Below the pieces are notes generated by a model. It was not told the DNA's origin and searched no databases. It saw only the letters and a list, made by a program, of their open reading frames with translations. This document shows positions 1,922 through 6,754 of a DNA stretch of 37,390 nucleotides, in pieces. Numbering within the stretch: position 1 is the stretch's first letter; the number at the start of each line of letters is the position of its first letter. Source of the DNA: Dactylosporangium siamense (lineage in GTDB: Bacteria > Actinomycetota > Actinomycetes > Mycobacteriales > Micromonosporaceae); assembly GCF_016862795.1 (NCBI RefSeq), contig NZ_BONQ01000136.1:1-37390 (forward strand), read 5' to 3'. The translations under genes and the position numbers were made by a program.

Positions 1922-1953
1922 TCTCGTGACGCAGCGGTGATGCTGTCACGAGA
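1922..1953. other. 9-bp inverted repeat over the stop codon of the upstream gene
   Basis: TCTCGTGAC (1922-1930) pairs perfectly with GTCACGAGA (1945-1953) around a 14-nt loop. It overlaps the TGA of the condensation-domain gene (1946-1948) and lies just before the start of the downstream gene. There is no U tract. It could be a processing site or weak attenuator between the two minus-strand genes. Confidence 0.45.
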
Positions 1954-3220
1954 CGGTCGGAGCCACGACCCGTTCCTCGACACCCGCGGCGGCGACCGCG
2001 ACGCGCTCCATCGCCCACAGGACGGCCTCGGCGTCGGCCAGCGCCAGGAGGTGGGTGTCGATGTAGATCGTGATCTCCACCGCCTCGTCGGAGCCGTCGA
2101 CGTTGAGGAACAGCGCCGAGGAGGGCTCGTCGCCACTGGCGACCCAGGCGAAATCGCTGCGTGCGGGGCGCGGCACGGCCTGCAGGGCGCCGCCGAGGCG
2201 GCGGTCGTTGACGCTCAGGTCGAGGGCGAACTGCCGGCCCCGGTCGGCGATGACGGCCGCGACCACCGCGTTGAGGTCGAGGCGGTTGTAGTACGCGTAC
2301 TTGTACGCGGTGATGGCGGCCCCACGCGTGCGGTGCAGCACGGCGGCGAAGTCGCCGGCGGTGTCGATCACGCACAGTCCCGGCTGCGAGACGGGGGCGA
2401 CGACACCGGCCAGGCCGGCCCGGAAGCGGTTGCTCGACACCAGCCGCAGCGGCACCACGGTCACCCCGGTGACCTGCGCGAACGCGATGGCGAACGCGGC
2501 CAGCAGGGCCGGCGCCGGCTCGACGCCCTCGCGCAGTGCCGCCTCGCGCAGCGCCGAGGGCAGGACCGTGGAGTGCAGCACGCCGGTCCAGTGTCGCGGG
2601 GTGCGCACCTCGCGGGATGGGGCGAGGCCCGGGTCGGGGATGGCGCGCAGGTGGGTGTCCCAGTGCCGCAGCGCGGCCACGTTCTGCCGGACGCCGGCGG
2701 GGAGGGCCTGCCGGCGGGCCTGTTCGAGGGCGGAGTGGCCCTCGGTGGGGGCGGTGGTGCGGGCGTCGGTCTCGGTCATCATCAGCACCGCGCCGGCGCC
2801 GTCCATGACGATGTGCGACATGACCAGGACCGCGCTGCGGCACACCCCGCCGGCGCGGACGACGGCCATCCTGACCGGCCACTCGTTGGCGTGGTCGAAG
2901 GGGACGTCGCGGTAGCGCGCCTCGACCGCGCCCGCGTCCACGTCGTCGAGGACCTCCAGCTCGATCGAACCGGATCCGTGCACGACCTGGCGCGGTGGGC
3001 CGTCGCCATCCGGGACCAGCCGCGTGCGCATGCTCTCGTAGCGGCTCATGAGGTATCGCAGCTCGTCGGCGACGTCGTCGAGGGTGGTCCCGGGCGGCAG
3101 CGGGCGGACGCCACCCATCGCCATGGACTGCCCGACCGCGACCATTTTGAGCCAGATGTCCAGCTGTCCCCACGACAGCGGGCCGCTGCCGGCGCCGCTC
3201 CCCTCGAACGTCACCCTCAT
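1946..3220 (-). CDS. Stand-alone condensation-domain (NRPS C-domain-like acyltransferase) protein
   Basis: 424 residues, about the size of one NRPS condensation domain. The N-terminus (PLSWGQLDIWLKM) matches the C-domain opening motif. The catalytic motif appears as SHIVMDG near residue 135, meaning the first His of the usual HHxxxDG is Ser while the catalytic second His and the DG are kept. Later strands (VVPLRLVSSNRFRAGLAGVV) fit the C-domain core near its latch region. There is no adenylation or carrier domain attached or nearby, so it is a free-standing acyltransferase of the condensation/PapA/WES superfamily, cytosolic, with unknown donor and acceptor. The ATG at 3220 begins a normal C-domain N-terminus. 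It is probably cotranscribed with the downstream isomerase-family gene. Confidence 0.7.
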   Translation of the reverse strand: MRVTFEGSGAGSGPLSWGQLDIWLKMVAVGQSMAMGGVRPLPPGTTLDDVADELRYLMSRYESMRTRLVPDGDGPPRQVVHGSGSIELEVLDDVDAGAVEARYRDVPFDHANEWPVRMAVVRAGGVCRSAVLVMSHIVMDGAGAVLMMTETDARTTAPTEGHSALEQARRQALPAGVRQNVAALRHWDTHLRAIPDPGLAPSREVRTPRHWTGVLHSTVLPSALREAALREGVEPAPALLAAFAIAFAQVTGVTVVPLRLVSSNRFRAGLAGVVAPVSQPGLCVIDTAGDFAAVLHRTRGAAITAYKYAYYNRLDLNAVVAAVIADRGRQFALDLSVNDRRLGGALQAVPRPARSDFAWVASGDEPSSALFLNVDGSDEAVEITIYIDTHLLALADAEAVLWAMERVAVAAAGVEERVVAPTVS

Positions 3221-3292: not shown

Positions 3293-3583
3293 CTACGGGT
3301 GGGAGCGCTCCGGCAGGCCGTCGACCTTGAGCAGGGCGTCGTCGGCGTAGCACCACACCCACTCCTCGCCCGGCTCGAACGACTGGACCAGGGGGTGGCC
3401 GACGCTGTTGTAGTGCGCGGTGGCGTGCTTGGCCGGCGAGGAGTCGCAGCAGCCGACGTGCCCGCAGCTCAGGCAGACCCGCAGGTGCACCCAGCGGCCG
3501 CCGACGGCCAGGCAGTCCTCACAACCCGGTGCGCTGGGCTGGACGTCGTTGATGGTGTCGAGGTGCTCACACGGTTTGCTCAC
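3293..3583 (-). CDS. UBP-type zinc finger protein
   Basis: A 96-residue zf-UBP (ZnF-UBP) protein. Visible ligands are an N-terminal C-x-H (CEHLD), C-x2-C (CEDCL), C-x2-C (VCLSCGH), a further CC pair, and His residues in AKHATAHYNSVGHPL, in the order typical of the domain. The C-terminus WCYADDALL matches the strand that carries the aromatic residue of the ubiquitin-binding pocket in eukaryotic homologues. The GRR-like arginine of that pocket appears absent, with CDSS in its place. The frame is open to 3748, but those residues lie antisense to the divergent gene; the GTG at 3583 begins directly at the domain (VSKPCEHLD). It is divergent from the receiver-flavoprotein gene with about 90 bp between them. 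The bacterial function of this family is not established. Confidence 0.85.
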   Translation of the reverse strand: MSKPCEHLDTINDVQPSAPGCEDCLAVGGRWVHLRVCLSCGHVGCCDSSPAKHATAHYNSVGHPLVQSFEPGEEWVWCYADDALLKVDGLPERSHP

Positions 3584-3674
3584 GGAGCACACCGTATCCG
3601 GTCCCGATCCGCTCGGAGAGCGAGACCGCGGGCGGTATTCGTGGAACGCCGGAACGCGTGGTTGGATTGGGACC
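3584..3674. promoter_or_regulatory. Divergent promoter region, UBP finger / receiver-flavoprotein
   Basis: A 91-bp spacer between divergent starts. On the minus strand TACGGT (revcomp of 3591-3596) lies 7 bp before the GTG at 3583, which is the right place for a -10 of a leaderless transcript. CGCTC-GGA-GAGCG forms a small inverted repeat near the middle. No clear promoter is assigned for the plus-strand gene. Confidence 0.35.
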
Positions 3675-5327
3675 ATGGCCAAGCCAGCGATCTTGACCGT
3701 GGACGACGATCCCGCGGTGTCCCGGGCGGTCGCCCGTGACCTCCGCAAGCAATATGCCCAGGACTACCGCATCATCCGCGCCGACTCCGGTCAGGAGGCC
3801 CTGGACGCGCTCAAGGAGCTGAAGCTGCGCGGCGAGCAGGTCGCGGTGCTGCTCGCGGACTACCGCATGCCCAACATGACGGGGCTGCAGTTCCTCGAGG
3901 CCGCGATGGACCTGTTCCCCCGGGCCCGCCGGGTGCTGCTGACCGCGTATGCCGACACCGACGCCGCGATCCAGGCGATCAACGTCGTCGACCTCGACCA
4001 CTACCTGCTCAAGCCGTGGCACCCGCCGGAGGAGAAGCTGTATCCGGTGATGGACGCCATGCTGGAGGCGTGGAAGGCCGCGCCCGACCGCCCGGTCGCC
4101 GACGTGAAGATCGTCGGGCACCGGTGGTCGGCGCCGTCATACGCGGTCCGCGACTTCCTGGCCCGCAACATGGTCTCGTACCGCTGGTACACCACGGACG
4201 ACGCCGAAGGGCAGCGGCTGCTGACCGCCGCCGGGCTGACCGAGGCCGACGTGCCGCTGGTGGTGACCCCCGAGGGCAAGACCATGGTCGCGCCGACGGA
4301 GGCCGAGCTGGCGGTCCAGGTCGGCCTGACGACCACCCCGGCGTCGGACTTCTACGACCTGGTCGTCGTCGGCGGAGGACCGGCCGGCCTCGGCGCGGCG
4401 GTGTACGGCGCCTCGGAGGGCCTGCGCACGGTGCTGCTCGAGGAGCGGGCGACCGGTGGGCAGGCCGGGCAGAGCAGCCGGATCGAGAACTACCTCGGAT
4501 TTCCCGACGGTGTCTCCGGTGCGCAGCTCACCGACCGGGCCCGCCGCCAGGCCGTCAAGTTCGGCGCCGAGCTGCTCACCGCGTGCCGGGTCACCCGGCT
4601 CGCGGTGGAGGGCTCGGCCCGCGTCCTGCACTTCGAGGACGGCACGACGATCGCCGCGCACAGCGTGATCCTGGCGACCGGGGTCTCCTACCGGCGGCTC
4701 ACCGCACCGGGCCTGGAGCAGTTCCACGGCCGGGGGGTCTACTACGGCTCCGCCTCCACCGAGGCGCCGAGCTGCTCCGACCAGGACGTCTACATCGTCG
4801 GCGGGGCGAACTCGGCCGGGCAGGCGGCGATGTTCTTCAGCCGCTACGCGCGGCGGGTCCACCTCGTCATCCGGGCCCCCAACCTGGACGCGTCGATGTC
4901 GCGGTACCTCATCGAGCAGATCGCCTCGGTGCCGGCCATCGAGGTCCACCCGTGCACCGAGATCATCGGCGCCGACGGCGACGAGCACCTGGAGCGGCTC
5001 ACGCTGCGGTCCGTGGACGGCAGCGGTGAACGCACCGTGGACAGCTCCTGGCTCTTCATCTTCATCGGCGCGGAGCCGCGCACCGACTGGCTGGACGGCG
5101 TGGTGCAGCGCGACGCGCGCGGGTTCGTGCTGACCGGCCCGGACGTCGAGGGCGGTGCCGACCACGCCGCGCTCGGCCGTGACCCCTATCACCTGGAGTG
5201 CAGCGTCCCCGGAGTGTTCGCGGCGGGCGATGTGCGCGCAGACTCGGTGAAGAGGGTGGCCTCGGCCGTCGGCGAGGGCGCGATGGCCGTGTCGCTGGTG
5301 CACCGGTATCTGGTGGAGGGGCAATGA
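3675..5327 (+). CDS. Response regulator receiver fused to thioredoxin-reductase-like flavoprotein
   Basis: 550 residues in three parts. Residues 1-135 are a CheY-like receiver: acidic D10-D12, phosphoacceptor D62 in LLADYRMP, T90 and K113 in LLKPW. Residues 143-220 resemble a thioredoxin/glutaredoxin fold without cysteines (VKIVGHRWSAPSYAVRDFL through VPLVVTPEG). Residues 226-550 are a pyridine nucleotide-disulphide oxidoreductase of thioredoxin-reductase type: FAD motif GGGPAG at 233-238, GGQAGQSS after 260, NAD(P)H motif GGANSAGQAA at 376-385, and the C-terminal GVFAAGDVR at 513-521. Where thioredoxin reductase has its CxxC, this protein has YYGSASTEAPSC (357-367), with only C367. It may therefore not reduce disulphides. 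The ATG at 3675 starts the receiver directly. Its stop overlaps the histidine kinase start (ATGA), so the two are probably partners. Confidence 0.9.
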   Translation: MAKPAILTVDDDPAVSRAVARDLRKQYAQDYRIIRADSGQEALDALKELKLRGEQVAVLLADYRMPNMTGLQFLEAAMDLFPRARRVLLTAYADTDAAIQAINVVDLDHYLLKPWHPPEEKLYPVMDAMLEAWKAAPDRPVADVKIVGHRWSAPSYAVRDFLARNMVSYRWYTTDDAEGQRLLTAAGLTEADVPLVVTPEGKTMVAPTEAELAVQVGLTTTPASDFYDLVVVGGGPAGLGAAVYGASEGLRTVLLEERATGGQAGQSSRIENYLGFPDGVSGAQLTDRARRQAVKFGAELLTACRVTRLAVEGSARVLHFEDGTTIAAHSVILATGVSYRRLTAPGLEQFHGRGVYYGSASTEAPSCSDQDVYIVGGANSAGQAAMFFSRYARRVHLVIRAPNLDASMSRYLIEQIASVPAIEVHPCTEIIGADGDEHLERLTLRSVDGSGERTVDSSWLFIFIGAEPRTDWLDGVVQRDARGFVLTGPDVEGGADHAALGRDPYHLECSVPGVFAAGDVRADSVKRVASAVGEGAMAVSLVHRYLVEGQ

Positions 5328-6754
5328 GCAGGCGCCTTTCGTTGGCCGAGCTTCGTGGGTTGTTCCTGTTCGAGGCGCTCGACGAGGAGCAGCTGACCTG
5401 GCTCGCCGAGCGTGGCGTGGCCGTGCGGTATGGCGGCGGCGATCTCGTCTTCCGTGAGGGCGACGCCGCGACCTGCTTCGTCGTGCTGCTCGACGGCATG
5501 ATCAGCCACAGCCGCAACGTGCGCGGCGACGACATCGAGATCACCCGCACCGACCAGGTCGGCGTCTACGGCGGCGCCACCCAGGCATATCTCGGCGACC
5601 GGGTCCCGCAGGTCTACGGCACGTCGTGGCACGCGATCACCGACGTCGAGGTGTACGAGCTGCCGGCCGTCGAGCTCGGCGCCGCGATGCTCAAGTGGTT
5701 CCCGATGGCGATGCACCTGCTCGAGGGCCTGTTCTTCGGCATGCGCAACACCAACAACGCCGCCGCCGAGCGGGAGCGGCTGCTCGCCCTCGGCGCACTG
5801 TCCGCCGGCCTGACGCACGAGCTCAACAACCCGGCCGCGGCGGCCGTGCGCGCCACCGCCGTGCTGCGCGACCGGATCGCCGGCATGCGCCACAAGCTCG
5901 CGATGATCGCCGACGGGCGGCTCGACGGCCAGCAGCTGCACGGCCTCGTAGAGCTGCAGGAACGCGCGGTCAAGCTGGCGCAGAACGCCCCGAAGCGCTC
6001 CGCCCTGGCCGCCAGCGACGCCGAGGACGCCATCGGCGACTGGCTCGACGAGCGCGGTGTCAACGGCGCCTGGGATCTCGCCCCGACCCTGGTCGCCGGC
6101 GGCGTCGACGTGCCGTGGCTGGACGACGTCAAGCTCTGCGTCGGCAAGCTCGACCTGGAGCCCGCGGTGCGCTGGCTGGTCTACACGATCGAGACCGAGC
6201 TGCTCATGGGCGAGATCGACGACGCCGTCACCCGGATCTCCGGCCTGGTCAACGCGGCGAAGCAGTACTCGCAGCTGGACCGCGGCCCGTTCCAGGTCGT
6301 CGACGTGCACGAGCTGCTCGACGCGACCCTCATCATGCTCAACGCGAAGATCTCGAAGCAGGGCGTCCGGGTCGTCACCCACTACGACCGCGAGCTGCCG
6401 CCGATCCCCGCGTACGCCGCCGAGCTCAACCAGGTCTGGACGAACCTCATCGCCAACGCGGTCGAGGCGATGCACGGCGACGGCACCCTGACGATCACCA
6501 CGTCGCTCGACGGCGACTGCCTGGCGGTCGAGATCGCCGACACCGGCGCCGGCATCCCCGCCGAGGTGCGCCCACGGATCTTCGAGCCGTTCTTCACCAC
6601 CAAACCGGTCGGCGAGGGTACGGGCCTCGGGCTGGACATCTCGTACCGCATCGTCGTGAAGAAGCACCACGGCGACATCCGGGTCACGTCCGCGCCCGGT
6701 GACACCCGCTTCACGGTCGTGCTCCCGTTGACGGAGGCCGCCCCGGCGGCGTGA
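5324..6754 (+). CDS. Histidine kinase with N-terminal cNMP-binding-like domain
   Basis: 476 residues, soluble, with no membrane segments. Residues 10-125 form a cyclic-nucleotide-binding-like beta barrel (DLVFREGDAATCFVVLLDG), but the phosphate-binding cassette reads GGATQAYLGDRVPQVYG, without the usual GE and R-S/T residues, so the ligand may differ. Residues 150-320 are a long helical dimerisation and phosphotransfer region with H165 in LTHELNNP as the likely phosphorylated His. Residues 365-470 are a HATPase: N box NQVWTNLIANAVEAM, G1 DTGAGIP at 406-412, and EGTGLGL at 431-437. It begins in a 4-base ATGA overlap with the receiver-flavoprotein gene, so the kinase very likely phosphorylates D62 of that protein. 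That pairing is inferred from gene order. Confidence 0.88.
   Translation: MSRRLSLAELRGLFLFEALDEEQLTWLAERGVAVRYGGGDLVFREGDAATCFVVLLDGMISHSRNVRGDDIEITRTDQVGVYGGATQAYLGDRVPQVYGTSWHAITDVEVYELPAVELGAAMLKWFPMAMHLLEGLFFGMRNTNNAAAERERLLALGALSAGLTHELNNPAAAAVRATAVLRDRIAGMRHKLAMIADGRLDGQQLHGLVELQERAVKLAQNAPKRSALAASDAEDAIGDWLDERGVNGAWDLAPTLVAGGVDVPWLDDVKLCVGKLDLEPAVRWLVYTIETELLMGEIDDAVTRISGLVNAAKQYSQLDRGPFQVVDVHELLDATLIMLNAKISKQGVRVVTHYDRELPPIPAYAAELNQVWTNLIANAVEAMHGDGTLTITTSLDGDCLAVEIADTGAGIPAEVRPRIFEPFFTTKPVGEGTGLGLDISYRIVVKKHHGDIRVTSAPGDTRFTVVLPLTEAAPAA

Follow-up and report, generated by a model that had tools for sequence, protein, structure and literature searches.

A bacterial signalling system that brings together ZF-UBP zinc fingers, cyclic nucleotides and redox chemistry was reportedly predicted in the abstract of Burroughs, Iyer and Aravind (2011). 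In AhpF, one or more N-terminal thioredoxin (Trx) folds carry a redox CxxC, and the peroxiredoxin AhpC serves as partner. Cyclic-nucleotide-binding domains hold a phosphate-binding cassette with Gly-Glu and Arg, and in the UBP fingers of HDAC6 and USP5 the arginine of a GR motif in the ubiquitin-tail pocket binds the C-terminus of ubiquitin. Here we analyze a three-gene locus of Dactylosporangium siamense, at positions 3293 to 6754 of a 37,390-nucleotide stretch (the window; contig NZ_BONQ01000136.1, positions 1 to 37,390), which encodes a histidine kinase, a response regulator with a thioredoxin reductase (TrxR)-like flavoprotein output and a zf-UBP zinc-finger protein.

On balance we lean, with modest confidence, towards the reading that these genes specify a cytoplasmic two-component system whose output is a cysteine-free NAD(P)H flavoprotein, with the UBP protein as its partner or target. 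The evidence comes from the conservation of the kinase and receiver as a pair, the loss of the redox dithiols from the output and the co-occurrence of the UBP finger with the flavoprotein.

A conserved kinase and receiver pair

The response regulator (550 amino acids, 3675 to 5327, plus strand) joins a receiver (REC) domain to the flavoprotein output. The histidine kinase (476 amino acids, 5324 to 6754, plus strand; HATPase_c at 91 bits) follows directly, the kinase ATG and the flavoprotein-gene TGA sharing the ATGA at 5324 to 5327. A 96-amino-acid zf-UBP protein with a GTG start (3293 to 3583, minus strand; Pfam PF02148, 56.6 bits, E 3e-15) diverges from the other two. An earlier annotation of the DNA letters (the original prediction) had proposed this layout, and its coordinates, the ATGA overlap and the divergent UBP gene were borne out by the translations and Pfam.

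A GTDB genome scan with an alignment of 16 homologues returned at least 589 flavoprotein relatives, of which the best 80 were kept, all Actinomycetota by their titles. In all 80 of these loci a same-strand kinase homologue scoring above 200 bits lies downstream; it usually follows the REC gene immediately, but in L114 it is approximately 1.3 kb away. The pair was also found on plasmids of Deinococcus, Caballeronia, Nostoc and Gloeothece, with kinase similarity of 275 to 297 bits, and the flavoprotein family on plasmids of Burkholderiales, Deinococcus, cyanobacteria and rhizobia.

The hallmarks of two-component signaling are present on both sides, as the phospho-histidine and HATPase domain in the kinase and the acidic pocket, aspartate, threonine/serine and lysine in the receiver (residues 6 to 118, 3690 to 4028, plus strand; Pfam Response_reg, 54.5 bits). 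D62, T90 and K113 of the receiver are each present in 56 of the 61 REC-type homologues aligned. To tally the phospho-acceptor position Asp62 (codon at 3858 to 3860, plus strand), open reading frames (ORFs) identical in their final 300 residues were treated as a single entry, and six ORFs with fewer than 600 downstream bases were left out. Among these non-redundant homologues, Asp62 was kept in all 121 whose locus contains a kinase and lost in 23 of the 35 that had enough downstream DNA and no kinase. This tie supports a predicted phosphotransfer between kinase and receiver. Together with the 80 best loci, it marks the two proteins as a conserved pair, and D62 stands as the phospho-acceptor position that had been originally proposed.

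The phospho-donor His165 of the kinase (codon at 5816 to 5818, plus strand) lies in the H-box LTHELNNPAAAA and has a His fraction of 1.00 among 115 homologues. Between the two helices of the dimerization and histidine phosphotransfer (DHp) domain is a helical insertion of approximately 80 residues (197 to 277; 5912 to 6154, plus strand), which is conserved across phyla, with E234, D235, W240 and A253 conserved, as seen from a model with a predicted local distance difference test (pLDDT) score of 82.6 and from the homologue alignment. The HATPase_c catalytic domain, assigned by Pfam, spans residues 366 to 470 (6419 to 6733, plus strand).

The kinase begins with a degenerate CRP-like or cyclic nucleoside monophosphate (cNMP)-binding-like domain (residues 34 to 120, 5423 to 5683, plus strand), which scores 23.7 bits against Pfam cNMP_binding, below the cut-off of 27.5. 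This domain, like the loss of CxxC described below, goes beyond the original prediction. Because the N-terminus is of CRP type, the kinase is likely soluble. Among the 115 homologues, G84 of the cassette is followed by A in 92% instead of forming G-E, and no cassette arginine is conserved at 92% or more; with these changes a classical cyclic nucleotide would not be expected as the ligand in this kinase branch. Single cyanobacterial and Deinococcus copies retain G-E or G-D.

Two variations were seen around the pair. Mycolicibacterium austroafricanum (L149, 8680 to 11556) has two kinases of the family in tandem behind the REC-flavoprotein gene, and a gene for LtrA (low temperature requirement A) lies downstream of the pair on plasmids of Deinococcus aetherius (L152, 11334 to 12563) and Nostoc (L154, 9154 to 10329).

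A flavoprotein output without redox dithiols

Beyond the receiver, the flavoprotein has a thioredoxin/glutaredoxin-like domain (approximately residues 143 to 218, 4101 to 4328, plus strand) and a TrxR-like FAD/NAD(P) domain (residues 227 to 546, 4353 to 5312, plus strand), the latter defined by Pfam, alignment and Foldseek, with a Pyr_redox_2 match of 111 bits over residues 227 to 535. In the window protein the Trx-like domain has no cysteine and no Pfam match. It was assigned from the order beta-alpha-beta-alpha-beta-beta-alpha in an AlphaFold2 model (mean pLDDT 84.4) and from the match to AhpF; the predicted fold is good but not proven, because the AhpF alignment has a root-mean-square deviation (rmsd) of 27.

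The TrxR site itself has lost its CxxC, which is missing from 61 of 61 REC-type rows (one of them with a stray CxxC elsewhere) and from the five displayed rows in which the flavoprotein carries a cyclic-nucleotide-binding domain (cNBD-type). In the window protein S-A-S-T (residues 359 to 362, 4749 to 4760, plus strand) takes its place, and the sole strongly conserved cysteine, Cys367 (codon at 4773 to 4775, plus strand), is present in 55 of the 61 REC-type rows. The protein scores 216 bits on the NCBI TrxR model TIGR01292, for which the cut-off is 343. With both dithiols missing, function as a thioredoxin reductase or as AhpF was rejected. With the usual TrxR dithiol gone, a reading of the protein as a TrxR-like enzyme cannot be taken literally. 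Because both dithiols are lost, the core would most likely act as an NAD(P)H-dependent flavin reductase or oxidase, or as a binding protein that depends on NAD(P)H or flavin redox state.

The top Foldseek matches of the model in the PDB are AhpF (4o5q/1hyu, 581 columns) and TrxR. Six of the 50 listed chains have an rmsd below 3, the best being 5mh4, the flavin-reducing form of Lactococcus TrxR (1.7, TMt 0.94), followed by 3cty, 3r9u chains A and B, 4up3 and 4a5l, which are not labelled flavin-reducing, at 1.9 to 2.9. The remaining chains mostly fall at 5.7 to 9.3, and intact AhpF at 18 to 27.

These data bear on an alternative in which the flavoprotein acts purely as a sensor or adaptor, its FAD/NAD(P)H occupancy and phosphorylation together setting its shape and what it binds (UBP, for example) without any turnover. 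The loss of both dithiols would suit such a protein, as would the best fit being to 5mh4, which is expected if dithiol shuttling is unneeded. However, the glycines of the FAD and NAD sites, along with many residues of the core, are invariant among the homologues, which exceeds what binding alone may need, and the five chains not labelled flavin-reducing also fit, the conformation chosen by AlphaFold2 being weak evidence. We consider a pure sensor or adaptor unlikely and lean instead towards the reading given at the outset.

Input domains in cis and in trans

In a tree of 37 TrxR-like domains (rooted at midpoint for drawing only), the 25 REC-type and 10 cNBD-type rows were split by a branch with support 98/96, and two short flavoproteins (L157 and L159) fell on the REC side. 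The cNBD-type flavoproteins carry a CRP-like domain in cis, and for the REC-type the CRP-like domain is found in trans, on the kinase, the two types representing the same modules either joined or split. The host genome holds both kinds (G000:C136, C129 and C94); beside the window protein, the flavoproteins at 173140 to 174279 of C129 (L065) and 65220 to 66353 of C94 (L066) have a cis cNMP-binding-like domain scoring 40.2 and 31.3 bits, respectively, above the Pfam cut-off.

The UBP gene was found beside several of these variants: a pseudo-REC flavoprotein with no kinase (L178), cNBD flavoproteins in Rhizobium (L158) and, by annotations, on Rhodococcus plasmids, and the short L157 and L159. Since it adjoins pseudo-receiver, cNMP-domain and short versions alike, UBP appears to track the Trx-like/TrxR-like core rather than the phosphorelay. 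In Rhizobium leguminosarum (L158, 8237 to 9325) UBP and the cNBD-type flavoprotein also adjoin a cyclic nucleotide-gated ion channel.

Co-occurrence and gene order of the UBP finger

Co-occurrence was assessed in two genome samples, with statistics that ignore phylogeny. In 101 genomes of the host family, with a table compiled by eye from search coordinates, zf-UBP was present in 66 of 66 genomes with a REC-flavoprotein compared to 10 of the 35 others (p 6e-16); when genomes having UBP only in a fusion to a sodium/proton exchanger were not counted, the REC-type count fell to 60 of 66, with the others unchanged at 10 of 35 (p 2e-10). In 296 genomes from the phylum, where the UBP counts mix fused and free copies, the flavoprotein family (E up to 1e-60) was found in 69, zf-UBP in 68 and both in 48, so that UBP accompanied 48 of 69 genomes with the flavoprotein and 20 of 227 without it (p 6e-23). 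The two genes were within 12 kb of each other in 21 of the 48.

Among the best 80 loci, UBP was within 36. Across all examined loci that contain both UBP and the flavoprotein, three gene orders were observed. UBP lies downstream on the same strand in 43 loci (four of them at 3 to 7.5 kb), upstream on the same strand in six loci with a kinase and three without, and divergently upstream in five loci with a kinase, the window included. In five further divergent loci the kinase was not detected; four of these are truncated stretches that cover the same genes again, and the fifth is Burkholderia L159. No single ORF joining UBP and the flavoprotein was present among the loci examined. The trio thus recurs in other genomes, and UBP accompanies the flavoprotein more often than expected when phylogeny is disregarded, so the absence of joint conservation that would have refuted the original prediction did not materialize. 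The GTG start of UBP is kept at the same place in five of five loci examined, from three genomes of the same genus. In the 91 bases that separate the divergent UBP and flavoprotein genes (3584 to 3674, no strand), a scan gave no sigma-70-type promoter, such a scan being a poor test in a GC-rich genome.

UBP could instead be a separate passenger, a short gene that lies nearby by chance or through shared regulation in large soil-type genomes. It is unlinked to the pair in most host-family genomes, being within 2 kb in just 14 of 66 with one more at approximately 3 kb, and the statistics above take no account of genome size or phylogeny. The size of the difference in both genome samples argues against this explanation, as does the fact that three different gene orders all keep the genes together. 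We disfavor the passenger explanation and regard it as the least probable of those discussed here; association of UBP with the flavoprotein core is the preferred reading.

In genomes of the host family, a zf-UBP domain also forms the C-terminal part of sodium/proton exchangers (L032, L037, L043, L044, L045, L047, L049, L204 and L205), as determined by Pfam for three and by similarity for all nine.

Conserved residues of the UBP finger

C21, C24, C37, C40, C45, C46, H53, H57 and H63 are invariant in all 67 exchanger-free UBP sequences, which accordingly contain the zinc-ligand set of the ZnF-UBP fold. W77 is present in 59 of 67 and otherwise replaced by Y, and Y79 in 50 of 67 and otherwise replaced by F. 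The eukaryotic ZnF-UBP domains compared (HDAC6, USP20, USP33 and USP49) share the fold, most zinc ligands and the aromatic W-x-Y in the tail-pocket region. They differ at two places. The vicinal pair C45-C46 (codons at 3446 to 3451, minus strand), found in 67 of 67 rows and in seven of seven exchanger-fused copies, corresponds to one C followed by G in the four displayed eukaryotic proteins, giving the bacterial finger an extra invariant cysteine. In addition, alignments place D47-S48-S49 where the GR-motif arginine would be, an arginine also missing from the displayed USP20 and USP33. The closest solved relative, 2ida (E 1.3e-33), is of the bacterial type and has the CC motif in common; it was deposited as 'Hypothetical protein'.

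The missing pocket arginine weakens the suggestion, made in the original prediction, that UBP could be a protein-tag sensor. Across 84 loci examined, the flavoprotein C-terminus finishes with H(R/Q)YL or a similar motif and a short tail that has no GG of the tag type, and the kinase C-terminus is variable. A ubiquitin-like tag on either protein that is read by UBP was not supported.

The vicinal cysteines raise another possibility, that UBP is a redox substrate and serves as a zinc or redox switch, the flavoprotein reducing or oxidizing its zinc-bound thiolates, including the extra cysteine. The invariance of the CC pair and the presence of UBP beside the core under any input domain are consistent with this idea. 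However, 21 of the 69 core-bearing genomes in the phylum sample are without UBP, and every one of the invariant cysteines could be a structural ligand of zinc. We therefore view a redox substrate as quite unlikely. A more far-reaching version would make the ubiquitin-reader fold the redox-controlled output of a bacterial two-component system: the phosphorylation-gated, cysteine-free flavoprotein would act on the vicinal cysteines or zinc of UBP, which, free or exchanger-fused, would relay the state to targets. This proposal is speculative, and we hold it as slightly more doubtful still. The broader description, in which UBP partners the core or is its target, is the one carried forward below.

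Proposed mechanism

In the mechanism we propose, the kinase would detect a signal from inside the cell with a CRP-fold domain stripped of the canonical cyclic-nucleotide residues. From what is known of these families, it would autophosphorylate on His165, the phosphate would pass to Asp62 of the receiver, and the core would bind FAD and NAD(P)H. Control would run from the kinase to the output, with the receiver standing in for the cNMP domain that is attached directly to the same core in the sister proteins. The phosphorylated receiver may then switch the Trx-like/TrxR-like core between states, and the UBP finger may contact the core as its partner or target; these two steps are suggested by the pattern of conservation and co-occurrence. 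The original prediction, in which phosphorylation of D62 controls a flavoenzyme, is thus supported in part, for the pairing of kinase and receiver, the retention of D62 and the company of UBP; control of an enzymatic activity by phosphorylation would be a further, putative step.

Several observations weigh against this reading. Twelve of the 35 homologues without a kinase retain Asp62, although nine of the 12 have no Thr or Ser at position 90, and the cells of the Asp62 tally are not independent because it largely sets one clade (at least 50% identity), which is essentially the whole kinase-linked group, apart from more distant homologues. In 44 of the best 80 loci UBP is outside the retrieved stretch, some of the stretches being short, and in six of the 66 host-family genomes it exists only as the C-terminus of a sodium/proton exchanger. 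Of the 37 REC-type genomes (at least 50% identity) in the phylum sample, nine carry no UBP gene anywhere, and the pair therefore does not depend on it. Finally, conserved flavin and NAD motifs would not in themselves establish activity of the flavoprotein.

The set is widespread, with at least 589 flavoprotein relatives, and unites two-component signaling, a flavoprotein stripped of its usual chemistry and a fold best known for ubiquitin reading. If the predicted steps hold, it would offer a tractable route to the roles of UBP fingers outside the ubiquitin system, and response regulators would gain a redox output.

Neighboring genes

Once the kinase and flavoprotein genes, UBP and antisense shadow frames were discounted, no cluster of neighbors was present in more than nine of the 80 loci. 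The clustering used a crude gene-calling rule based on GC content at third codon positions (GC3), which clustered UBP in only 10 of its 36 loci, so short conserved neighbors could be missed. In the window, a NAD kinase gene (21 to 1067) lies approximately 2.6 kb upstream, and a cluster of the same appearance, judged by eye, is upstream in six of 80 loci. Adjoining UBP on the minus strand are genes for a mycothiol-dependent maleylpyruvate isomerase-like protein (1154 to 1912) and a lone condensation-domain protein (1946 to 3220).

Behind the trio in Tsukamurella (L156, 8556 to 10264; L092 and L100) come genes for S-(hydroxymethyl)mycothiol dehydrogenase and for a hydrolase of the MBL fold. A link to formaldehyde/mycothiol detoxification was considered and rejected, as close homologues of the dehydrogenase follow the trio in only these three of the loci examined.

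Comparison with known systems

A literature search, which covered top-ranked titles and abstract openings for the larger result sets, turned up no experimental study of the trio. The view that the trio has no settled function is in keeping with this result, but needs qualification, since the 2011 prediction reportedly already ties bacterial UBP to redox signaling of a cyclic-nucleotide type. Membership in an anti-phage defense system was also considered and rejected, the three proteins matching zero PADLOC families at E 0.001.

The 2011 paper (Burroughs, Iyer and Aravind, Mol Biosyst) is cited in PMC4506424. From archaeal metagenomes, response regulators have been described for which the output is predicted to be a thioredoxin reductase (PMC5847659). 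These resemble the present system in joining REC to a TrxR-like output, but are archaeal and metagenomic, and the main text of that paper gives zero matches for zf-UBP. AhpF and bacterial TrxR have the FAD and NAD(P) fold in common with the flavoprotein, which differs from them in its Trx-like domain without cysteines, in SAST replacing CxxC and in the extra REC domain.

The system of Burroughs et al. is also close. There, reportedly, as here, a UBP finger is tied to cyclic-nucleotide-type and redox domains, and the loci described here link UBP to a TrxR-like and a cNMP-type module, which we take to be the definition of that system. The gene set accordingly belongs to a kind reportedly already predicted. 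In the set described here, the cNMP-like domain is part of a histidine kinase and has lost its canonical binding residues, so that the 'cyclic nucleotide-dependent' label reportedly given in 2011 contrasts with the degenerate cassette of these kinases, and the flavoprotein carries REC and is missing CxxC. The present analysis worked out that the core is cysteine-free and the cNMP domain degenerate, and it detailed the tie between Asp62 and the kinase, the co-occurrence numbers and the vicinal CC pair of the UBP finger.

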